28,622 nt of DNA from Candidatus Zhuqueibacterota bacterium (GCA_016783505.1 JADHWK010000030.1:1-28622); one strand, 5' to 3'. Positions 1,726-11,813 are shown, counted from the stretch's first letter. Translations and numbers: made by a program. The notes: generated from the letters alone by a model not told the origin.

Positions 1726-4700
1726 TTATTTGAGATACAACATCTTCTTCAGACTTCGAAAATCCCCGGCCTGAAGCTCGTAAAAGTAAAGACCCGTCGC
1801 CTGGTCATTGGCGAACCAGGTCACCTCTTTGACCCCGGCTTCCATCTCCCGGTCAACGAGGGTGGCAATCTCCTGACCCAGAACGTTGTAGATCCTTAAA
1901 GATACCCAGCTTTTATCCGACAAGCCAAAGGTGATGGTGGTCTTCTTATTGAAGGGATTGGGAAAGTTCTGTGAGAGAAAGGTGGCCTGGGGAATGCCCC
2001 CCTCTTCGCCTTCTTCTTCAATCAGGACAAGGGGGAGGGTGGTGATGACCCGCAGGGTCCAGTCATTGAGGATGCCTTCATCCCCGAGGGCCACATCGGC
2101 CACGAAAAGTTCCCATTGGCCCTGAGCAGGCTCACCGACAAAATCCTCAAGACTACCCGGCCCGGGAAGGGGACTATCCCAGGTGTACCACAGGTTCAAG
2201 TTGGGAAAGTTAAACCCATTACGATCGTGGAGCCTCACCGTGGTTCCCCCCGGCGAGGTGAGCTCCACCACCAGGTCGCTGACCCAGGGATGAACAATAT
2301 CCAGAAATACCTCGACCCCCGCCACCTGGATGTCATCGTCTACCCGGCAGATGCTGCGAACCCGTTCCAAATTATTGTCGGGAATGGCCAGATCGGCCCG
2401 GCCTCCATAGTCTGCCACCAGGGCCCGGATCAGTTCAAATTCCACATCCGGGGTGGTCTGATCTTGTAAAACGGTTACATCGGATCTTATCTGGGGGATA
2501 AAGTCGGGATGGGATGCCCGCAGGGTATAGGAGCCCGGATAAATCCCCCCGATTTCAAACTCGCCGCTGGTCAAGGTTACGGCGCTTAAATCCGTCCCCA
2601 CTAGGTTTACTACCACACCGCTGTTGTTGTCCTGGCCTGAAAGGTCCACCCTGCCGGATATGGTCCCGGGCTCCCCGGGCTCAGGGGACAGCAGATAATT
2701 AACCGTATTAACCAGCAATTGGGCACCGATTTCCCGATCCATGGCCCGGTAGTTAAAACAGAAAAAGACCACTTGGGCACTAGCGGGATGGCTATTGTTA
2801 TCATAGACCAACACCCCACCCCAGTCAGGATCAGAACCCCAGGTATAAACGGCGTAGGCATCTGCGGCTGGCCGATTGCCATCCTGATCCCCCCATCCCT
2901 GATATGCGATCCCCAGGCTCTGGGGTAAAACATAAGGGAAGGTGGCAATGGGATGTTGGCTGAACTCAAGCGTTAGCGGGCCGCCCTCGTCAGCACCCCA
3001 GTCGGACACATGAAGGACCTTCCGGGCAAACGCCCAGTCGCCCGGGTAGGCGAGGAATTTATATCCCAATTCACCCCCTTCGAGCAACAATTTTCCCCCC
3101 CGGGCCACATAGCTTTTCAGGGAGTCCCGGAGGGTTGAATCGGGTAAGGGATCGAGGGCACCCCCACTGGAAAATACAATGAGGTCGTAACCATCCCAGC
3201 CTAAGGAATCAAACTGCGATACCCCATTAACCTGATAACCATAAGCTTTAAGGTCATCCATCACCAGCGGTGCCGAGGGGACCGGCGGGGTGAAGGCCTG
3301 AGTGATAACCGTTTTATCCTTGAGTATTTTGGAAACCTGACCCCCCGTCCCCCCTTTATCCTCGATGACCAAGACTCTGCCCGACATCCGCTCCAGTTCA
3401 AAATCCAGACGGAGGCTATCGGTATCTAGGATTACCGTCAAAAGATAGGATATATAATGGGGCGATTCGACCCTAAAAAGGTAACTGGAATAGGGAAGCT
3501 CCATCTGATAGGAGGGATCACAGGCCGAATCGGCCTCGACGACAGCATAGGGTTCATCCTGGGCATCCTGCCGAAAGATGGTAAGCCTCCCCCCCAGGGG
3601 TCTTGAGCTATCTTTTCCCCGGATAAATCCCCAGATCCGGGTTTTTGGGGCCGGGGTAAGCACCAACGCCACCTGGTTGGTATCTACCTTTAACAGATAC
3701 GGTTCATAATAAGGGACAAAGCCAAACGCCGAGACGTAAAGGCCATATATCCCTACGGACAGATCCCTCTCTACCACAAAACGACCGTCCTCATCGGTCA
3801 GGACGGAAAACCAGGGGGGCTCTAGTCCGGGATCTGCCCCCCCAGGGTATAGTTTGACCTCCATCCCCGGAAGGGGCTCGCCGGTCTCCATCACCCTCAC
3901 CCTTCCCGTCAGGCTTCCGAAGGCGGGGCGCACCGGGATGCTCTTCTGGTACAATCGGTAACCGGCCAGCCCCAGAACTGCCCACAGCTCTCCGGTAGTG
4001 GGCGGAGCAATCCGCAGGGTGTCCCCCCCAAAAGCCGTGTCAACCCCGCACCCCTTTACAAAAAGGGTGGCCCCCGGGGGTTCTGAAAAAAAGGTTATCA
4101 CCCCCGGCCAGGTATGGGTCAAGGCGCTGTCCAGTCCGATGTCCGGGGTTGAAACCTCTATCCCCGCATTCAGCAGATCAAGGGCCCCAACAACGCGGAT
4201 GGAGTCAACAAACAGGTCGTAGTTCTCCCCGGGCCGTCTTCCGGTGATCAGCAACGTCTCACCAAAGAGGGGGAGGAAGGACAGGCTGCAAAGGCCTGAA
4301 GCATCGGTGGTATCGGTCACCGGGGCTACGCCCCACCCGGAAACCCCGATCACCGTCCCCGGCAGGGGCAATCCCATCGTATCCCGAACCGTCACCGCTA
4401 TCCGGGCCTCCTGGTTCACCACCACCGTGTCGGGGTTCAGGATGACCCTGGTTGGCACTAAGGCCATTACCGTATCTATGAAAGCCTGATAGCCATTTTT
4501 GACAACGGAGAGAATCAGGGGGCCCTCTTCGGCAGGAACGGGGTTAAGGGCCAAGCTAACCCTCCCCAGGGGGTCGGTAGCCCCCTCCCCGTACCAGACC
4601 CCATCCCCGAACAGGGTCACCCAAGCCCCTGGAATCGGTCCGCTTAGGGATTGCACCCGAAGGGAGTACTCCGAATGGCCCAGGGGGAGAACAGGGCAAT

Positions 4701-6240
4701 AATCAACAAAAAGTTTTTGGGGGACGCCCATCAGCAGCGGGAGTGCTGGGTCGCTCAGAAGATGGTAGACCTCAAAATAATGATGGGCCCGGTTCAATCC
4801 ACGGGCGTAGACGGCCATTTTGGCCGCTAGCCCAGCCATTCCCAGCTCCAATAATTCGGGGGACCAGTCCCCAAACATCCCCTGACCCATCCAGACCTCC
4901 CCTTCCCCCCGGGCCCCCGGAAAGGCCGGCGCCCCAGGCTTCACCCGAGCTACTTCATCCTCCCCATCCCCGGAAAGAGCCCAGGTGGAGTCACAAATAA
5001 TACCCAGCAGTTCGGTGGAATGTCGGATGATCCCCCGGCCGGCGGGCGCCTCAGGTGGCCACCGGTCCAGATAGAAATTCAGATAAGAATCGTCCCCCCC
5101 AACGACTGAAAAAATCCCCTGGTCATATCCGATCAGCCGGTCGAGCACCGTTCCCAGTTCCTTAGGATCAGACACTAAAAGCCGCCCCAGGGCGATGTCC
5201 GGTATCCATTCCCCCCCATCCATGACCGAGTAGGGAAGATCGGTAGTAACCCCCGGGGTGGTGCCGGTAAAGGCCGGGACATCCCCCATGTCCCCCAGCA
5301 GCAGGACATAGGCCGGGGGGATCTCCCCGTAGCGGTATTGATTGAAGATATAATTTCGAATAGCATGCTGGCTTTCCCCCAGTTCGGTCACCGTCTTGAC
5401 GTCCATCCCAAAACCCTTCTGCCGCTTCCAATGGATAAAATCAGGGAGTTTGGGGTCATCGGCAAACCGATCCCCAACGATCAAAAGATACGCCGGTTTT
5501 TTCCCCTGGCCTATCCCCGCACCCCCGAAGGCCTCGGGGTTTAAAAGGAAGGAATTGGCAATGGCCTCAAACCCGGGCAGGTAGTATCGCTGGGAGACGG
5601 CCTCGGTGGTGGCAGGATCGGAATCGGAGAGCTGAACTTCCAGGGTTGCAGTGGTGAAAACCGTCAAGCTCCGGGAAGCAGGTTGATAATGGATAGGATA
5701 AAAGGCCACCCTTGCCATCCGGTAGGCCCGGAAGATGGACACATCGAGGATTTCAACCCGGGGGGATGGATAATCGGCTTCGGTGGCATAAAACTCCTCA
5801 TCGAAGGCAAATTTCCCGATGGACTTATCTTCGCCCTCAAGTACGGGTTTCTGAACAGGAATCAGGGGATAGTTCAACCCGTGGTCATATAAAGAAAAGG
5901 TTTTAACGGTGGAATCAACTACCTGGACGGAAACCCCGGCACCCCAGGGGATCCGCACCAGGGTAATGATAACCGGCAATTTCGCCTTACCTGGATCGGA
6001 AGTGTAGAAAAAATCCCCCAGGGAAATCTCGGCAAAGCTGCCCTTTGGGGTCTGCTTTTCTTCAACAAACATCCCCCCCAGGCTCACCGAGTATCGGACC
6101 GTCCCATAATCGGACCCTAGATGGAGGACCTGGGCCGGGCCCGGTGGGGTCTCCCCATCAAAGGCCAGCCATTCTGGGGCACCCAAAACCGGGAGGCCGA
6201 TTAGAAAAATGATAGAAACTAATAGCCGAATCATTACCAA
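1726..6240 (-). CDS. Large exported C25 (gingipain)-like protein with P domain and type IX sorting domain; catalytic core apparently missing
   Basis: The 1504 residues begin with a signal peptide (about residues 1-21, hydrophobic IIFLIGLPVLG then A). Residues about 249-505 resemble Peptidase C25: YLLIVGDRF, the IPPAYVLLLGD strand, TTDLPYSVMDG, PDIALGRL, and a terminal LLSDPALPLLMG. The usual central segment with the GHG histidine and catalytic cysteine is not seen; only about 120 residues lie between GRL..GYDQ and DPALPL. Then come Ig-like/CARDB-type segments (520-690), carboxypeptidase-regulatory-like repeats (775-860, 866-950, 1192-1270), a ThuA/GATase-like region (954-1185), a P/Homo B-type domain (about 1275-1400, HPWVSDLVVELTSPGG, NDWTLRV) and a type IX sorting domain (1423-1504, SQNFPNPFN, IYNVLGQE). 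Secretion to the cell surface is inferred. The first codon is TTG with AGAGGG 11 bases upstream; an ATG two codons later (6234) is an alternative. Confidence 0.85.
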   Translation of the reverse strand: MVMIRLLVSIIFLIGLPVLGAPEWLAFDGETPPGPAQVLHLGSDYGTVRYSVSLGGMFVEEKQTPKGSFAEISLGDFFYTSDPGKAKLPVIITLVRIPWGAGVSVQVVDSTVKTFSLYDHGLNYPLIPVQKPVLEGEDKSIGKFAFDEEFYATEADYPSPRVEILDVSIFRAYRMARVAFYPIHYQPASRSLTVFTTATLEVQLSDSDPATTEAVSQRYYLPGFEAIANSFLLNPEAFGGAGIGQGKKPAYLLIVGDRFADDPKLPDFIHWKRQKGFGMDVKTVTELGESQHAIRNYIFNQYRYGEIPPAYVLLLGDMGDVPAFTGTTPGVTTDLPYSVMDGGEWIPDIALGRLLVSDPKELGTVLDRLIGYDQGIFSVVGGDDSYLNFYLDRWPPEAPAGRGIIRHSTELLGIICDSTWALSGDGEDEVARVKPGAPAFPGARGEGEVWMGQGMFGDWSPELLELGMAGLAAKMAVYARGLNRAHHYFEVYHLLSDPALPLLMGVPQKLFVDYCPVLPLGHSEYSLRVQSLSGPIPGAWVTLFGDGVWYGEGATDPLGRVSLALNPVPAEEGPLILSVVKNGYQAFIDTVMALVPTRVILNPDTVVVNQEARIAVTVRDTMGLPLPGTVIGVSGWGVAPVTDTTDASGLCSLSFLPLFGETLLITGRRPGENYDLFVDSIRVVGALDLLNAGIEVSTPDIGLDSALTHTWPGVITFFSEPPGATLFVKGCGVDTAFGGDTLRIAPPTTGELWAVLGLAGYRLYQKSIPVRPAFGSLTGRVRVMETGEPLPGMEVKLYPGGADPGLEPPWFSVLTDEDGRFVVERDLSVGIYGLYVSAFGFVPYYEPYLLKVDTNQVALVLTPAPKTRIWGFIRGKDSSRPLGGRLTIFRQDAQDEPYAVVEADSACDPSYQMELPYSSYLFRVESPHYISYLLTVILDTDSLRLDFELERMSGRVLVIEDKGGTGGQVSKILKDKTVITQAFTPPVPSAPLVMDDLKAYGYQVNGVSQFDSLGWDGYDLIVFSSGGALDPLPDSTLRDSLKSYVARGGKLLLEGGELGYKFLAYPGDWAFARKVLHVSDWGADEGGPLTLEFSQHPIATFPYVLPQSLGIAYQGWGDQDGNRPAADAYAVYTWGSDPDWGGVLVYDNNSHPASAQVVFFCFNYRAMDREIGAQLLVNTVNYLLSPEPGEPGTISGRVDLSGQDNNSGVVVNLVGTDLSAVTLTSGEFEIGGIYPGSYTLRASHPDFIPQIRSDVTVLQDQTTPDVEFELIRALVADYGGRADLAIPDNNLERVRSICRVDDDIQVAGVEVFLDIVHPWVSDLVVELTSPGGTTVRLHDRNGFNFPNLNLWYTWDSPLPGPGSLEDFVGEPAQGQWELFVADVALGDEGILNDWTLRVITTLPLVLIEEEGEEGGIPQATFLSQNFPNPFNKKTTITFGLSDKSWVSLRIYNVLGQEIATLVDREMEAGVKEVTWFANDQATGLYFYELQAGDFRSLKKMLYLK

Positions 6241-6342: not shown

Positions 6343-6437
6343 ACATAACGGTTTCAGCATAAAAGAAGTCCTGAGCGTTAGCGAAGGATTTGGGTGATCC
6401 CGACAGAGTCGGGAGAACCTTTTATGTTGTGTTAGGC
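6343..6437 (-). other. attC-like integron recombination site 1
   Basis: On the minus strand the site opens with GCCTAAC (6437-6431; matches R'' RYYYAAC) and closes with GTTATGT (6349-6343; GTTRRRY with one mismatch). The inner arms CATAAAAG/CTTTTATG pair. The centre folds into two side hairpins, CCCGAC/GTCGGG and AAGTCCT/AGGATTT. It begins 29 bases after the stop of the 6467-6802 gene, as expected for an attC at the 3' end of a cassette. This is the weakest of the three sites because spacing between the AAC/GTT ends and the inner arms is unequal (8 versus 4 bases) and its consensus core faces the opposite way. Confidence 0.5.
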
Positions 6438-6466
6438 GATGCGGCGGGCTTACTTTATCCAACATC

Positions 6467-6802
6467 TCATCTAAACCTTTTTAATACTGTTTTTTGGATT
6501 ACTTGAAAGCGGTCTTTGACCCCAAAATCTTTATACAAACTTTCTGTTAAAGAACCCTCTGGATAATTTGTTTTATCCTGTATTGCCATAAGTTCTGTTA
6601 CAACAAGCATAAATTCCACTGTAAATTCTCCAACTTTATCTAATTCTTTAAATGGCTCAATGTGTTCAGGTTTAAAAAATTGGAGAGTTGGCGGGAATGA
6701 ATTTACAGGTTTAATCTGTTTAAGCATTATTGGAATATGGTCTTTCAATTTTAGAGTTAACGATGGATTATAAGCGTGTTTAACATACATCTTAACAGTC
6801 AT
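6467..6802 (-). CDS. Hypothetical protein (last gene of the third cassette)
   Basis: This is a 111-residue protein that I do not recognise. It has no signal peptide or membrane segment, is lysine- and hydrophobic-rich, and has a mixed alpha/beta look (for example KPEHIEPFKELDKVGEFTVEF). Its ATG overlaps the final codons of the upstream zinc-ribbon frame (TGACTGTTAA is shared), so translation is probably coupled. A second ATG four codons in (6790) is possible. It is followed after 29 bases by an attC-like site. Base composition is AT-rich like the neighbouring methyltransferase gene and unlike the GC-rich C25-like gene. No function can be assigned. Confidence 0.6.
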   Translation of the reverse strand: MTVKMYVKHAYNPSLTLKLKDHIPIMLKQIKPVNSFPPTLQFFKPEHIEPFKELDKVGEFTVEFMLVVTELMAIQDKTNYPEGSLTESLYKDFGVKDRFQVIQKTVLKRFR

Positions 6803-6953
6803 CTATTTCTGCCAAGATATCTGTTAGCTCTGTCAAAGTCCACTTACGACCGCATTTACAGTCTCCATTGTATGTATTCGGATACTAACCACCCTCGACT
6901 TCGAGCATTACTTCTCTCCCACATAAACATTTAATCGTCACTTCATTCTGCAT
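6792..6953 (-). pseudogene. Small CxC...CxC zinc-ribbon-like protein interrupted by an in-frame TAG
   Basis: A good ribosome site (GGAGG, 5-6 bases before ATG at 6953) starts a 53-codon frame ending with TAA at 6794-6792. It reads MQNEVTIKCLCGREVMLEVE-GG, then TAG (6887-6885), then YPNTYNGDCKCGRKWTLTEL and ILAEIDDC. The two Cys-x-Cys pairs (KCLCG and DCKCG) on either side of the stop would form one zinc knuckle, so the frame is only meaningful if the TAG is read through or is a recent mutation (CAG to TAG is one change). The next gene starts inside its last codons. Options are a fresh pseudogene, a sequencing error, or amber readthrough. Confidence 0.6.
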
Positions 6954-7062
6954 ATCTACCTCCTTCATTTTTCGATGGTTCCAAATCGTTCTCGCTTTTC
7001 GTCATGAAACAACATCGAATTATAAAGTACCCTAACTGGTTGTAAAATTTAAACAAAAATCT

Positions 7063-7938
7063 TCATTTCTTCCTTCGGTTATTTGTTAGATATTTCCTCT
7101 GTTCCTCAAGAAGTGTAAGTTGTCGTTCTATATTTTTAATCTCGTATTTTTTCAATCTTAATTTGTATTTTTCTTCAATAAGTCCTTTAGTCAGCCTATC
7201 AAGAATCATCTTGTAGTACTTTTCATCTATTTCTGCGGAAATATATTGCCTATTGAGAACTTTACATATCTCTATTTCAGAACCACTACCACCAAAAAGA
7301 ATCAACACAATCTCGTCGGGTTGAGTACAAGACTTTATTAACATTTCAGAAAGTTTTTGTGGTATCTGACAGGCATGGAACGTCTTTTCTCTACTCACAT
7401 TTTTAACCAAGTCAAAATAAAACCAATCATAGGGCATCCTTCCTGTTGAACCATTTGCTAAGTTTTTTAAAATCCGTCTATCTGTTGGATTCTTATAAGG
7501 AACTGCTACATTATTTTTGTAAAATTTGTTGTCCCTTGTCTTTCGACAATGCAGGATACTTCTATGGGCTGTGGTAAAACGTTTTGGAGTGTGCCCTACA
7601 TTTGTATTATATACCCAAGCATAATCATAAACTCCATAGCATGCCTCGTCCAAATATTTTACTCTCAAATAAGCGTTCTGTTTTGGATAGTTTATTAAAA
7701 ACATATTCCCTGTGTCTTTTAATACTCTCATAGATTCCCTTGCTAATTCGATATACCATTCAATATATTCATTAAAATTTTTTGTGTACGACTTATCTCC
7801 ATATTTCACCCCAACATTATAGTCAGGATCTCCATATACCATATCAACACTTTTGTCAGGTAATTCCTTCAATACCTCCATAATATCTTTTAGAAATACT
7901 TTATTTAGGTAACTCTCGATATCCTTATTAGCACCCAT
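7063..7938 (-). CDS. DNA adenine/cytosine-N4 methyltransferase, beta-type motif order, variant DPDY
   Basis: This 291-residue enzyme belongs to the N6/N4 DNA methylase fold (Pfam N6_N4_Mtase type). Catalytic motif IV comes first, YGDPDYNVG at residues 35-43, and the SAM-binding motif I FGGSGSE lies near the C-terminus at 215-221, which is the beta-class order. Motif IV is normally D/N/S-P-P-Y/F; here the second proline is aspartate. NYPKQNAYLRVKYLDEA and NTNVGHTPKRFTTAHRSILH lie between them. It would methylate an exocyclic amino group in a short DNA target. The ATG abuts the TAG of the preceding 180-residue gene, with GGAGG inside that gene's end, so the two are translationally coupled and probably form one restriction-modification unit. 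The AT-rich composition contrasts with flanking core genes. Confidence 0.85.
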   Translation of the reverse strand: MGANKDIESYLNKVFLKDIMEVLKELPDKSVDMVYGDPDYNVGVKYGDKSYTKNFNEYIEWYIELARESMRVLKDTGNMFLINYPKQNAYLRVKYLDEACYGVYDYAWVYNTNVGHTPKRFTTAHRSILHCRKTRDNKFYKNNVAVPYKNPTDRRILKNLANGSTGRMPYDWFYFDLVKNVSREKTFHACQIPQKLSEMLIKSCTQPDEIVLILFGGSGSEIEICKVLNRQYISAEIDEKYYKMILDRLTKGLIEEKYKLRLKKYEIKNIERQLTLLEEQRKYLTNNRRKK

Positions 7939-8481
7939 CTATGCCTCCTTCAGGGCATTATATAACATTGCTCGCCCTTTATAATTCCAATACACAATGT
8001 CTTCCATAATAAACATCCATTTTATCACTTTCAAAAGGATATCGCCCCTTGCACCTGTTTCAAATGATGTTTGTAAATCAGAATAATTTTCCAACAGTTG
8101 GTCAACATCATTTTCTGAGCACTCGTATATTGCAGTAAGCGCGTGCAATAAAACACTAAACTTTTGTGGGTTTTCCTGTTTTTTATTTTGAAAGTCGAAC
8201 TTAATCTCATCATGTGAGCCTTTCCCCAATCTAAATTCTTTCAACACTTCCACTTTAAAATCAAAGTTCCATTTATTCAAGCCTCCTGGCCTGAAGATAA
8301 AAAGTTGCTTACCAATTGATAAATTCTCCACGGGATAACGGAATTTTATCCCTTTTCCTCTTTGTTGGCTTTCAACATCAATAAATGTATTTACGACTTT
8401 TCTCACTATTTCATGACGAGCCATAGAACCCTTAATTTCAATCATTTTTCCAGTAATAATGGTTGTATCTTTTTTCTTCAT
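7939..8481 (-). CDS. Unrecognised 180-residue partner of the DPDY methyltransferase, candidate restriction endonuclease
   Basis: I do not recognise this protein. It has no signal peptide or membrane helix. The N-terminal part (ITGKMIEIKGSMARHEIVRK) is followed by a beta-rich FIFRPGGLNKWNFDFKVEV stretch and a helical C-terminus. FDFKVEV and EIKFDFQNKK contain acidic/Lys combinations that could fit a nuclease core, but no clean PD-(D/E)xK motif stands out. It is first in the cassette: AGGAG lies 8 bases before ATG, the start is 31 bases after attC-like site 2, and the stop abuts the methyltransferase ATG. A restriction enzyme or specificity/control partner is inferred from context only. Confidence 0.7.
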   Translation of the reverse strand: MKKKDTTIITGKMIEIKGSMARHEIVRKVVNTFIDVESQQRGKGIKFRYPVENLSIGKQLFIFRPGGLNKWNFDFKVEVLKEFRLGKGSHDEIKFDFQNKKQENPQKFSVLLHALTAIYECSENDVDQLLENYSDLQTSFETGARGDILLKVIKWMFIMEDIVYWNYKGRAMLYNALKEA

Positions 8482-8512
8482 GTTTTCATCTCCTTTTCAG
8501 GCGACCAATTGC

Positions 8513-8602
8513 GCCTAACGTCCGAGCGTATCTGAAGTCCAGCAGTCAGGCTGGATTTGGGCGGAGTGCCAAAGGCACGAAGCCAGATACGCTCTGTTAT
8601 AT
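8513..8602 (-). other. attC-like integron recombination site 2
   Basis: On the minus strand the 90-base site opens with ATATAAC (R''-like) and closes with GTTAGGC (8519-8513), a perfect GTTRRRY core. Inner arms GAGCGTATCTG and CAGATACGCTC are perfectly complementary over 11 bp. The centre folds into two hairpins, AAGTCCAGC/GCTGGATTT and GTGCC/GGCAC. It lies 70 bases downstream of the 8673-9515 gene, and the next gene starts 31 bases after the core. The words GGGCG-A/G-AGTG and CGAAGCC are shared with site 3, showing one family of sites. Confidence 0.75.
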
Positions 8603-8672
8603 GAAGTGGGGGTCATTCTTATGGCACCTGCCATTCTACACCACATATTTTAAACAACCCTGTGCTGAGAAG

Positions 8673-9515
8673 TCATAATAGTTTCTGCTGAGAAACGTCT
8701 TTAATAATGTATGGAGAAAGCCACTCCAACAGTTCACTCTGTTGTGGAGGACAAATACCTCGTGTCCTCAAAAGCCTCTGCATAATGTCATAAACCAAGG
8801 ACCAATCAATCTCTTGAAGTTTGGATGAATGTTTCTGGATGTTCTTCACTACTTGATAAGTTTTGTAAGGAATTGTGATGCAGGTAAGCAGGGTGTTCAA
8901 CCGTCCAGTCTTCCAATCCTTTCTGAATGTTGGTCTTCCATCCTTAACATTATACTTCACATCCTCGTTCCACCCGAGGATATCCATGAAATGTAGGAAT
9001 CCAAGGAGACCATACTCCATGAGGTCACTGATAGATTTTTCCAATTCTTGGATACTATCAGCAATCTTTTGACTCGGTTTGTATCTAATGATACCTTTCT
9101 TATCTTCTACATGATCCAATAGGTAAGCGTTCCTGTAAATCAAGGTTAGTACTGCTCTGAATATCTCAAAATCATAAACAGAAATCTTGGAGAGTTGTTT
9201 CCAAACAGTATCGAATCCATACGGTTCGTCTGCGTGTCCCACACAAGGTATCATATCATTTGGATTGGGATTTCTTGACTTAAAAACCTCCTTCCCAGGC
9301 TTGAGGAAATAGACCTCCACACCATTAGGAAGTGTAATAATGGCATGTTTTTTGGGAGAATCTAAGGAAGGCCCAGCTTCCCAACTAAGCGCCTCCGAGA
9401 TTCTCTTTATTCTCTTATTCTCTACCTCTTTGGGCTTACCTTTCTGGAGTTCTGTTCTTAAAAAATCAGGGTAGTTTGGATTTTCGGGTCTCCCTATAAC
9501 TTGTTTTTTTGCCAT
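8673..9515 (-). CDS. Unrecognised 280-residue partner of the NSPPY methyltransferase, candidate restriction endonuclease
   Basis: I do not recognise this 280-residue soluble protein. The N-terminal third is basic and contains AIITLPNGVEVYFLKPGKEV, which looks like a beta-hairpin with a following Lys. The rest is mostly helical (VYDFEIFRAVLTLIYRNAYL; LLGFLHFMDILGWNED). It starts 12 bases after the methyltransferase stop, with AAGGAAG overlapping that stop and 7 bases before ATG, so the pair is one operon. Its 3' end is followed by attC-like site 2. Tight pairing with a DNA methyltransferase inside a mobile cassette makes a restriction endonuclease the best guess, but no catalytic motif is clear. 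Confidence 0.7.
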   Translation of the reverse strand: MAKKQVIGRPENPNYPDFLRTELQKGKPKEVENKRIKRISEALSWEAGPSLDSPKKHAIITLPNGVEVYFLKPGKEVFKSRNPNPNDMIPCVGHADEPYGFDTVWKQLSKISVYDFEIFRAVLTLIYRNAYLLDHVEDKKGIIRYKPSQKIADSIQELEKSISDLMEYGLLGFLHFMDILGWNEDVKYNVKDGRPTFRKDWKTGRLNTLLTCITIPYKTYQVVKNIQKHSSKLQEIDWSLVYDIMQRLLRTRGICPPQQSELLEWLSPYIIKDVSQQKLL

Positions 9516-9527
9516 TTTAATTCTTCC

Positions 9528-11360
9528 TTAACTCTTTCTCAGGACTAATACGGTTTCTTCTCTTATAATTCCCTCACTGCTTTTTTGCAATTTTCTCCCA
9601 ACGAGCCTATCAATCTTGAAACCTAAATTTTCAGCTATTTCTAATAAAATTTTGTCGTTAGGAACTTCAATAGAATTGCCACCAACTATAAAATGATTGT
9701 TCCCAATGACAATTGCAGATTTACCCCCTTTCCTTAATACCCTCTTCATTTCTCTCAAAGTTTTGATCATATCAGTGTAAAACTTAAAACTACGAAGTCC
9801 TGCTTGCTGACGTCCATTTGAGATTAAATAATTAACAACCTTACTACCCGTTTCTGAAAAATCTGTTAAATTTTCATCCTTTTTAGTGAGTTTTTCCATT
9901 AGTTCTTTTCTATCATAGTTTACTCTTGGATTTCCCATCATATCTTTTCCTAATTTCTCGATAGATCCTGCCAATTCAAGGAGGACTAATTGAGGGTAGT
10001 CGTTTTTTATATAATCCAGTGCTACTGCGTAAGGGGGAGAATTTACTATACCACCTATTGATTCAGAGGATATTTCTTTCTTCATATTTCTCGTGTCAGC
10101 AATATATGTTTTAGATTTTCCTAATCGAATTTTTAAAGTTTTGTTCAATCTTTGAAAGAGAAATATTCTAAGGTAAAGATTATTAAGCCTTCCACGAAAT
10201 ACGTCTAAAAACTGGTCGCTTGTTCTTCGAGCCACATCACTAATCGTTCCACTTAATGATAGAAGCAAGAAATTTCTTATTTCTTCATCATTTATATTCT
10301 TGAGTAACTCTCTGGCTATAAGAACTTGTGGAACAGTTTTCTCCTTATCCCTTAAAGCATTCTTTAATTTTATGCACAATTGTTTCGATTTCTCCGAAAT
10401 CCAATTATAATTGACCTGTCCCCTAAAAAATGGGAGACTCCCATATGTTCCTCGCTTCCAACTGTATATCTCTTCGGTTAGTGTCTTAAGATACTCGTTA
10501 ATGCTGTCTTTCAATCTGGAAGTTTCAAGATTTAAAGAGTAGCACTTTACATTACTCATCAAGACAGAAAGAGGATTTATCTCAACTCCAACACTATCGA
10601 GCCCTAATAAAGAAGCTTCTACTAATAGTGTCCCGCTTCCAGCAAAGTTATCAAGAATAATTCCTTTATCATAAGGATAAATATTATTTAATAATGCTCG
10701 AACCATTTTAGGGTGAAATTTACCTTTATATGGATGGAAATAATGAGTGAGGTATAGGGAAGGCTCTTCTCTTATTGCAAAGTAGTCTTGAAGCCTTTTA
10801 CCTATGCTTAGAGTAGAAGATGCGGGAATGCGGTATATATCCTTTATGAGATGAGAAAATAATATTTCCACATTCCGTTCAACTTCCCTTTCGTTTCTAC
10901 TAAGTTTTGAGATATACTGTGATTTTTCAAGGAAATATTGATTTGTGATAAATCTGAAAAGAAGAAGACTGTCTTTTCTAAAGTAATGGACGTTCTTCTC
11001 CACTACTCCATCAGGAAATATATTTCTTAATAATTCGGACGGCGATTTATTCTCGCTCATAATTAGATAGATTTCTCGAGTATAGGATAGCCGTTTTACT
11101 AATTTAGAAATATCTCCCATTGTTTCAGATGTCCCAAAATATCCTTGAATCCTACCATATGACAACTCATGGGTTATAAAATCTTGAATTCTTATAGATG
11201 AATGTGTGAACTTATTTAATGGTTCCTCTTTTAATTTATCTGCAAAATTATAAATAGGCTTTACCATCCCAAATAAACTCTCTAATTCAAGTTTAGCAAA
11301 ATCTGTAGCCTCATGTTCGCTCTTTATATTGTTAAAGATTTTAAAATAAAAATAAAACAT
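9528..11360 (-). CDS. DNA methyltransferase with NSPPY motif and long N-terminal region
   Basis: This 610-residue protein has the order motif I then motif IV. SAM-binding ILDNFAGSGTLLVEA lies at 235-249, with acidic GVEINPLS after it, and catalytic NSPPYAVALDY at 440-450. THYFHPYKGKFHPKMVRALL just before motif I is typical of amino-methyltransferases that act on DNA. S/N-P-P-Y motifs are common in N4-cytosine enzymes, so m4C is a reasonable but unproven product. The first 200 residues (FYFYFKIFN, FAKLELESLFG, LVKRLSYTREIYLIM) resemble the N-terminal ferredoxin-like/THUMP-associated part of tRNA methyltransferases such as Trm11/TrmG10, which is unusual in a restriction-modification setting. 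GGAGAG lies 5 bases before the ATG. The gene starts 33 bases after attC-like site 3 and is AT-rich. Confidence 0.85.
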   Translation of the reverse strand: MFYFYFKIFNNIKSEHEATDFAKLELESLFGMVKPIYNFADKLKEEPLNKFTHSSIRIQDFITHELSYGRIQGYFGTSETMGDISKLVKRLSYTREIYLIMSENKSPSELLRNIFPDGVVEKNVHYFRKDSLLLFRFITNQYFLEKSQYISKLSRNEREVERNVEILFSHLIKDIYRIPASSTLSIGKRLQDYFAIREEPSLYLTHYFHPYKGKFHPKMVRALLNNIYPYDKGIILDNFAGSGTLLVEASLLGLDSVGVEINPLSVLMSNVKCYSLNLETSRLKDSINEYLKTLTEEIYSWKRGTYGSLPFFRGQVNYNWISEKSKQLCIKLKNALRDKEKTVPQVLIARELLKNINDEEIRNFLLLSLSGTISDVARRTSDQFLDVFRGRLNNLYLRIFLFQRLNKTLKIRLGKSKTYIADTRNMKKEISSESIGGIVNSPPYAVALDYIKNDYPQLVLLELAGSIEKLGKDMMGNPRVNYDRKELMEKLTKKDENLTDFSETGSKVVNYLISNGRQQAGLRSFKFYTDMIKTLREMKRVLRKGGKSAIVIGNNHFIVGGNSIEVPNDKILLEIAENLGFKIDRLVGRKLQKSSEGIIREETVLVLRKS

Positions 11361-11393
11361 TTTATCTCTCCACTAATTTAAGACCGCCGTTTC

Positions 11394-11470
11394 GCTTAAC
11401 GTTTGAGCATTTACGAACTTGCGAAGCAAGTTGGGCGAAGTGAAACGAAGCCGTAAATACTTTGTTATCT
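11394..11470 (-). other. attC-like integron recombination site 3
   Basis: On the minus strand the 77-base site opens with AGATAAC and closes with GTTAAGC (11400-11394), a perfect GTTRRRY core. Inner arms GCATTTACG and CGTAAATAC pair. The centre carries the hairpin AACTTGC/GCAAGTT with a GAA loop and the GGGCGAAGTG...ACGAAGCC words shared with site 2. It begins 7 bases after the stop of the antitoxin-like gene, and the next cassette gene starts 33 bases after the core, the usual spacing in integron cassettes. Confidence 0.75.
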
Positions 11471-11477
11471 GCCGTCG

Positions 11478-11690
11478 TCATTCAGTAGACTTCTGTAACT
11501 GGTGTTGAGCGATTAAATTACGAACCTCAGGAACTAATTCATACGGAATCTCCACCATACTCTGGCCCTCTTGTTCGTATGCTGCTTTATCTCCTGCTAA
11601 GGCTTCCTCTTCGGTCTGACGCTCGTAATAGGCTAAAACACGACGGACTCGGTCTTCGTCCCATCCGGGTGGAAACTTATTCTGCTTCAT
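11478..11690 (-). CDS. Antitoxin-like 70-residue protein (FPPGWDE family)
   Basis: The ATG at 11690 gives 70 residues beginning MKQNKFPPGWDEDRVRRVLA and continuing YYERQTEEEALAGDKAAYEQ, then a VEIPYELVPEVRNLIAQ helix. From memory, similar small acidic proteins are common in cyanobacteria and other environmental bacteria, usually just downstream of a BrnT/DUF4258-like toxin gene with which they overlap. Here the same overlap is seen: its first 14 bases lie inside the end of a toxin-like frame. The longer in-frame extension to 11762 is rejected as the start because those bases encode the toxin C-terminus in another frame. With the toxin truncated, this is an orphan antitoxin-like gene. DNA binding and autoregulation are family inferences. 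Confidence 0.7.
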   Translation of the reverse strand: MKQNKFPPGWDEDRVRRVLAYYERQTEEEALAGDKAAYEQEGQSMVEIPYELVPEVRNLIAQHQLQKSTE

Positions 11691-11769
11691 CTTTAGGCTC
11701 TGGGTCCGGTACATAAATAACACGCAGATACCGACCAGCTTGTGTCTGACCAATAGCCACACGTGATCC
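11677..11769 (-). pseudogene. C-terminal remnant of a BrnT/DUF4258-like toxin
   Basis: In the frame offset from the antitoxin gene the minus strand reads GSRVAIGQTQAGRYLRVIYV then PDPEPKDEAE and stop (11679-11677). The GQTQAGRYLRVIYV strand pair is characteristic of the C-terminal half of small RNase-like toxins of the BrnT/DUF4258 type. A TAA lies directly before the fragment, so roughly the first two thirds of the usual gene of about 90 codons are gone, as is the ITAYEL-type end. The fragment overlaps the antitoxin start by 14 bases. It marks the upstream, eroded edge of the cassette block. Confidence 0.6.
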
Positions 11770-11813
11770 TTACATTAATTTCTTCCGAAAAAGACGAGCT
11801 TTCTTAAAGTAAG

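Follow-up and report, generated by a model that had tools for sequence, protein, structure and literature searches.

Integrons are defined by the integrase IntI, and surveys look for IntI together with classical attC sites. The closest described systems are the IntI integrons, including those of archaea, and the CALINs (Ghaly et al. 2022, PMC9668308), which share with the system described here one site per cassette, boxes of the R'' and R' type with a boundary at G^TT, cassette ends that match, sites predicted to fold, genes in the same direction, an attI beside the recombinase gene (of a different motif, and absent from the window itself), cross-domain transfer, and a cargo of methylation/restriction and toxin-antitoxin genes. 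On the other hand, the recombinase of the present system constitutes a separate clade and lacks the IntI insert, its sites are unseen by a classical attC model and are conserved in sequence across domains, its attI is composed of ATATnCGAA palindromes, and the recombinase is located on the cassette strand. The reverse-orientation integrons of Spirochaetota (PMC9668308) also have a recombinase pointing as the cassettes do, but they use an IntI with an extra domain. Simple tyrosine recombinases near IntI are likewise found in the integron-like subgroup of Smyshlyaev et al. (2021, PMC8138268); in the accessible parts of that paper, no cassette arrays, attI or attC are described for the insertion-less members. 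The ILEs of Pseudomonas (PMC4542609) have in common with the present system the integron-like name and site-specific insertion, but according to the accessible text of that source they insert at rulB, and they are set apart here by description and not by sequence. A literature search among open-licence papers found no description of such a cassette system.

The window, that is, the whole stretch of 28,622 nucleotides that was analysed, is a complete contig (C29; JADHWK010000030.1) of a 2.5-Mb MAG, 60% complete, of Candidatus Zhuqueibacterota bacterium (GCA_016783505.1). It contains a block that is very probably a short mobile-cassette array of an integron-like system distinct from IntI integrons (Table 1). 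An earlier note on this DNA had proposed a cassette array bounded by recombination sites and carrying two methyltransferase modules, and this is supported. Its three structured sites were borne out. Their distances from the stop codons of the minus strand (6467, 8673 and 11478) are 29, 70 and 7 bases, respectively, and the next gene starts 31 and 33 bases past the cores of sites 2 and 3, as it had stated. All the genes of the block are on the minus strand, and its AT-richness was also confirmed, with a GC content of 33-42% versus 50-60% in the left flank and 44-49% in the right flank. In agreement with the integrase-free window of that note, neither an integron integrase nor a relative of the array-associated recombinase was reported on the contig. 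The search of the window against Rfam gave no match. Directly downstream of the array, positions 1726-6240 correspond to a C25 (gingipain-type) peptidase with propeptide, P-domain, carboxypeptidase-regulatory domains and Por secretion tail.

Table 1. Features of the cassette block of the window and of the recombinase locus of the same genome (contig C82).
Feature	Position	Strand	Boxes, ends or evidence
Site 1, attC-like	6343-6437	-	Minus strand: R'' GCCTAAC (6437-6431), R' GTTATGT (6349-6343), three-way branched hairpin between; R3 58.9 bits, E 2.4e-13; fold z -4.2 on + strand
Site 2, attC-like	8513-8602	-	R'' ATATAAC (8602-8596), R' GTTAGGC (8519-8513); R3 106.8 bits, E 5.3e-26; fold z -5.0 on + strand
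Site 3, attC-like	11394-11470	-	R'' AGATAAC (11470-11464), R' GTTAAGC (11400-11394); R3 51.9 bits, E 1.7e-11; folding alone not significant
Cassette 1, 2.2 kb	6349-8518	-	From TTAGGC after G of site 2 R' to G of site 1 R'
111-aa protein, last gene of cassette 1	6467-6802	-	Also present in Marinimicrobia, together with the site 1 R'' arm
Type II DNA N6/N4 methyltransferase, 291 aa, cassette 1	7063-7938	-	PF01555 E 8.7e-33; PADLOC MTase_II E 1.2e-144
180-aa protein, candidate restriction endonuclease, cassette 1	7939-8481	-	Position only, abuts the 291-aa methyltransferase
Cassette 2, 2.9 kb	8519-11399	-	From TTAAGC after site 3 to G of site 2 R'
280-aa protein, candidate restriction endonuclease, cassette 2	8673-9515	-	Position only, adjoins the 610-aa methyltransferase
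Type II DNA methyltransferase, 610 aa, cassette 2	9528-11360	-	PF01555 E 1.1e-10; PADLOC MTase_II E 5e-30
94-aa ORF, cassette 3	11478-11762	-	ORF call
Recombinase remnant (C-terminal, broken), contig C82	L019:9905-10363		62% identity
attI, contig C82	L019 ~9878-9850		Boundary 10/10, then three family sites

The sites are more than chance, as model R3, in which no sequence of this genome was included, recovered in the window exactly these three minus-strand sites, the next unrelated match having an E value of 0.9. Single-strand folding of the two strands was significant for site 1 (z -3.2/-4.2) and site 2 (z -4.5/-5.0), in both cases with better folding of the + strand ("bottom" with respect to the genes) than of the gene strand. 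Site 3, whose folding alone was not significant (z -1.7 and -1.3), is recognized by homology. The R'' box (RYYYAAC) is perfect in site 1 only, and the two perfect GTTRRRY boxes noted previously are the R' of sites 2 and 3; the boxes of the family are often GTTATNY or GTTGTCC.

The ends of cassette 1 are complementary at 4/4 variable bases (GTTAGGC vs GCCTAAC) and those of cassette 2 match at 1/4 only, giving complementary ends in one of the two testable cassettes of the window; because its ends do not match, cassette 2 may have arisen by fusion or by decay. The search for the 5' end of cassette 3 gave no boundary, and nothing GTTATCTGCC-like is present between 11476 and 11930. Two type II methyltransferase modules, probably of restriction-modification, make up the cargo. 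With respect to the restriction-modification genes proposed earlier, both methyltransferases are clear, and their partners are candidate endonucleases by position: the 180-aa protein had no family match and one PDB match of no weight, and the 280-aa protein had no match in family, PADLOC or PDB sequence searches. The gene of the 111-aa protein together with the R'' arm of site 1 showed 80.7% identity over 379 bp with a Marinimicrobia UBA2242 MAG (L042), beside a family site.

The starting point for the wider family was a set of weak DNA matches of site 2 elsewhere in its own genome and in two unrelated MAGs, from which a DNA pattern was built and searched over GTDB genomes. It was found in 99 stretches, mostly of seep and hot-sediment archaea (Methanophagales/ANME-1, Methanosarcinales, Thermoplasmata, Bathyarchaeota, Altiarchaeota, Archaeoglobus, and others) and of deep-branching bacteria, including Dehalococcoidia, Marinimicrobia, WOR-3, Aminicenantes, Zixibacteria, Thermodesulfatator, and Desulfotomaculum. 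Most of these genomes are MAGs. In an unbiased sample of 192 genomes obtained with strict filters, family sites were present in 22; as a fixed DNA pattern served as the seed of the family set, the arm sequences carry a bias and the prevalence figures are minimum values. Four pattern matches in viral contigs were discarded as coincidences in coding sequences without AAC/GTT boxes. On locus L024, half sites (3453-3505 and 4052-4089) share the R'' arm of the family, with their R' half replaced by a terminal GCACCCC...GGGGTGG hairpin; they are possibly fused or decayed sites.

The end-to-end alignment of the family follows the order NNNNAAC-A-arm-GGCTTCG-hairpin-CGCCCAAAT-hairpin-ACTTC-arm-(4-5)-GTTNNNN, in which box and arm are separated by about 1 base at one end of the site and by 4-5 at the opposite end. 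Covariation is present in every helix, 27 of the 34 pairs having changes on both sides, and its value was 0.270 versus 0.115 in shuffled alignments and at most 0.068 in slid controls; since part of the arm was fixed by the pattern, the covariation there comes from the window and C82 sites and from other variants. The window sites were among those used for model R2, and R3 detected 13 sites in the genome of this organism. Altogether, its genome has 17 family sites on 12 contigs, some in short arrays and some single. The earlier note had regarded hairpins scattered singly over the genome as evidence against cassettes, and such scattering is partly present; it does not refute cassettes, because single cassettes are also the rule in LR991653.1, the closed chromosome of a GoM-Arc1 archaeon with 43 sites.

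Family sites form same-strand arrays with a median spacing of 885 bp. The usual cassette is composed of one gene followed by a three-way hairpin site, about 0.9 kb in total, and the longest cassette ORF is oriented as its site in 87 of 92 cases. In an integron, whatever follows the G of R' is already part of the next cassette, and these bases should thus match the R'' of the following site rather than that of the site they adjoin; such agreement between the two ends of a cassette is expected if it is excised as a circle. The comparison of each R' with the reverse complement of the following R'' gave a mean of 3.16/4 matches, versus 2.03 (sd 0.11) after shuffling, with 0/10,000 shuffles as high; perfect end matches were obtained in 33 of 70 (6.6 expected), and the same-site control, R' against its own R'', remained at the shuffled level. 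For the single sites of LR991653.1 the upstream matching boundary scored 8.39/10, versus 7.62 by chance. These boundaries are placed in some cases at attI-like or other family sites and in others within other sequence, a distribution that suggests the existence of secondary insertion points.

The enzyme linked to the arrays, as determined by tblastn of several recombinases against the loci, is a tyrosine recombinase other than IntI. It contains the domains Phage_integrase and Phage_int_SAM_4, to which the L087 enzyme adds HTH_17 and a weak match to HARP, and keeps the catalytic residues. The IntI-specific insert (patch III, ~26 residues, ...ALPDALERKYPRAGHSW...) is absent from 13/13 aligned array recombinases, which constitute their own branch (92/89 support) beside IntI (100/100). 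The XerC/XerD copies of the genome under study (C36, C87) were placed outside this clade. A same-strand site is located within 2.5 kb downstream of 15/19 testable recombinases with at least 50% identity, compared with 19% of positions taken at random from these loci; the four exceptions include an IntI fragment. Copies without a nearby site are present in L185, L196, and L187. The five genomes with a close recombinase (~58% identity or more) are all among the 22/192 with sites. Additionally, in Ca. Argoarchaeum (G070:C41) an archaeal IntI with the insert adjoins, in divergent orientation, a distant array-type recombinase (L187:1-861 and 1446-2330), and relatives in L187, L021, L026, and L009/L010, with 35-47% identity and from genomes without family sites, have the same N-terminal motif, GRRWxPxxKxW (HARP-like).

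At 50-190 bp past the recombinase stop codon there is a GTT, and the bases following it match the R'' of the first cassette. This boundary is 10/10 bases in L019 (of the same genome as the window), L087, L096, L074, L116, L046, and L078, and 8-9 in most others. It is preceded by an attI-like site on the same strand as the recombinase, composed of palindromes ATATnCGAAnnnTTCGnATAT, often in tandem, the last one ending in ...GAACRA-GTT, and the motif recurs in many loci directly before such boundaries. The archaeal chromosome LR991653.1 holds an intact recombinase, encoded on the minus strand at L087:6622-7764, with attI and cassettes; it has two recombinases, both with a same-strand site downstream, and as it is closed, this speaks against a binning error. 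An attI, a cassette and a site are also present in the cultured bacterium Thermodesulfatator autotrophicus S606. The window is a CALIN-like array without recombinase, and the only copy seen in its 60% complete MAG is the C-terminal remnant of contig C82, accompanied by attI and three sites.

Cassettes are shared between distant genomes. Methanophagales archaeon L043:738-1464 and Dehalococcoidia bacterium L047:427-1153 share 727 bp at 89.5% identity, with each of the four ends at a distance of 1-4 bases from the R' G. A further 823 bp are common to Thermodesulfovibrionales L057 and Methanomicrobia L097 at 94%, and bacterium G020 and LR991653.1 have one cassette in common at 79%. The L043/L047 comparison shows the movement of a whole cassette between archaea and bacteria. 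The cargo of the family comprises methyltransferases, acetyltransferases, MazF/PemK, HepT-like proteins, and DNA methylases; methylation/restriction and toxin-antitoxin cargo of the same sort has been reported for integrons (PMC9668308).

The system works like an integron, yet it lacks the IntI insert and escapes the classical attC model. It is very probably composed of a tyrosine recombinase without the IntI insert, having up to the domains HTH_17, HARP-like, Phage_int_SAM_4, and Phage_integrase, an attI-like palindrome site that immediately follows the recombinase gene in the same orientation, and cassettes with mostly one gene and one three-way hairpin site each. Strand exchange by the recombinase would involve the G^TT of a folded cassette site and that of a second site, either attI or another one, and by this exchange a circular cassette, TTNNNN...NNNNAAC-hairpin-G, would be inserted or excised. 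Recombination, catalysis, the identity of the nucleophile, and the use of one folded strand are predictions from sequence.

An ordinary CALIN, with divergent attCs moved by an IntI elsewhere in the genome or the community, is unlikely. The R'/R'' boxes resemble those of integrons, as do the matching ends of the cassettes, CALINs are already known from archaea and bacteria (PMC9668308), and contig C44 of this same genome carries a decayed true integron, with an IntI pseudogene showing a large internal deletion (L020:2866-3190; second fragment 2 kb farther, at 5318-5366) and, following a DNA methyltransferase gene, a classical attC (L020:8845-8916). The genome search proposed earlier yielded this pseudogene, this true attC and further family sites; an intact IntI was not among the finds. 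However, a covariance model of 20 classical attCs from class 1 integrons, an Alteromonas plasmid and Gemmatirosa (R1), which recovered 20 sites in the Gemmatirosa array and the attC of C44 at 32.5 bits, listed in the window site 2 at 9.7 bits (E 2.3), amid chance matches of equal height, and neither site 1 nor site 3. Over the 99 family loci it touched ~2/194 family sites, both weakly. The family model found no site in the classical arrays L033 and L034, family sites are absent from the three genomes whose IntI exceeds the curated cut-off, and the heads of the arrays are occupied by the different recombinase, not by IntI. The earlier assignment of the three sites to integron attCs is not supported; they are part of a different family, and its associated recombinase is not IntI. 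Classical attC was rejected as their explanation, R1 being near-blind to window and family, and IntI was rejected as the main partner, with only a pseudogene on C44 that is not beside family sites. As a separate observation, a contig of Anaerolineales UBA4823 (L079) has classical attCs (3769-3897 and 5079-5207) together with a site of the new family, and therefore both cassette kinds can meet.

It is quite improbable that the recombinase is a passenger, a phage or transposon integrase, with the cassettes moved by something else: relatives at 35-47% identity do occur in genomes without sites, but close copies are always at the array head, on the same strand, and followed by the attI motif. The matching ends about 1 kb apart, the boundary after attI that matches the next site, and the whole cassettes that distant genomes share, cut at the site boundaries, would all be left unexplained if the hairpins were independent mobile or regulatory elements (MITE/REP-like, terminators) lying after genes by chance; many sites are indeed single and 3' of stop codons, but this reading is already contradicted and very hard to sustain.

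Considering the block as part of an integron-like system distinct from IntI integrons, a cassette system with another recombinase means that cassette capture is not unique to IntI. Such a system is an outgroup for the origin of integrons, and it accounts for some of the exchange between domains that takes place in communities of methane seeps and hydrothermal settings.
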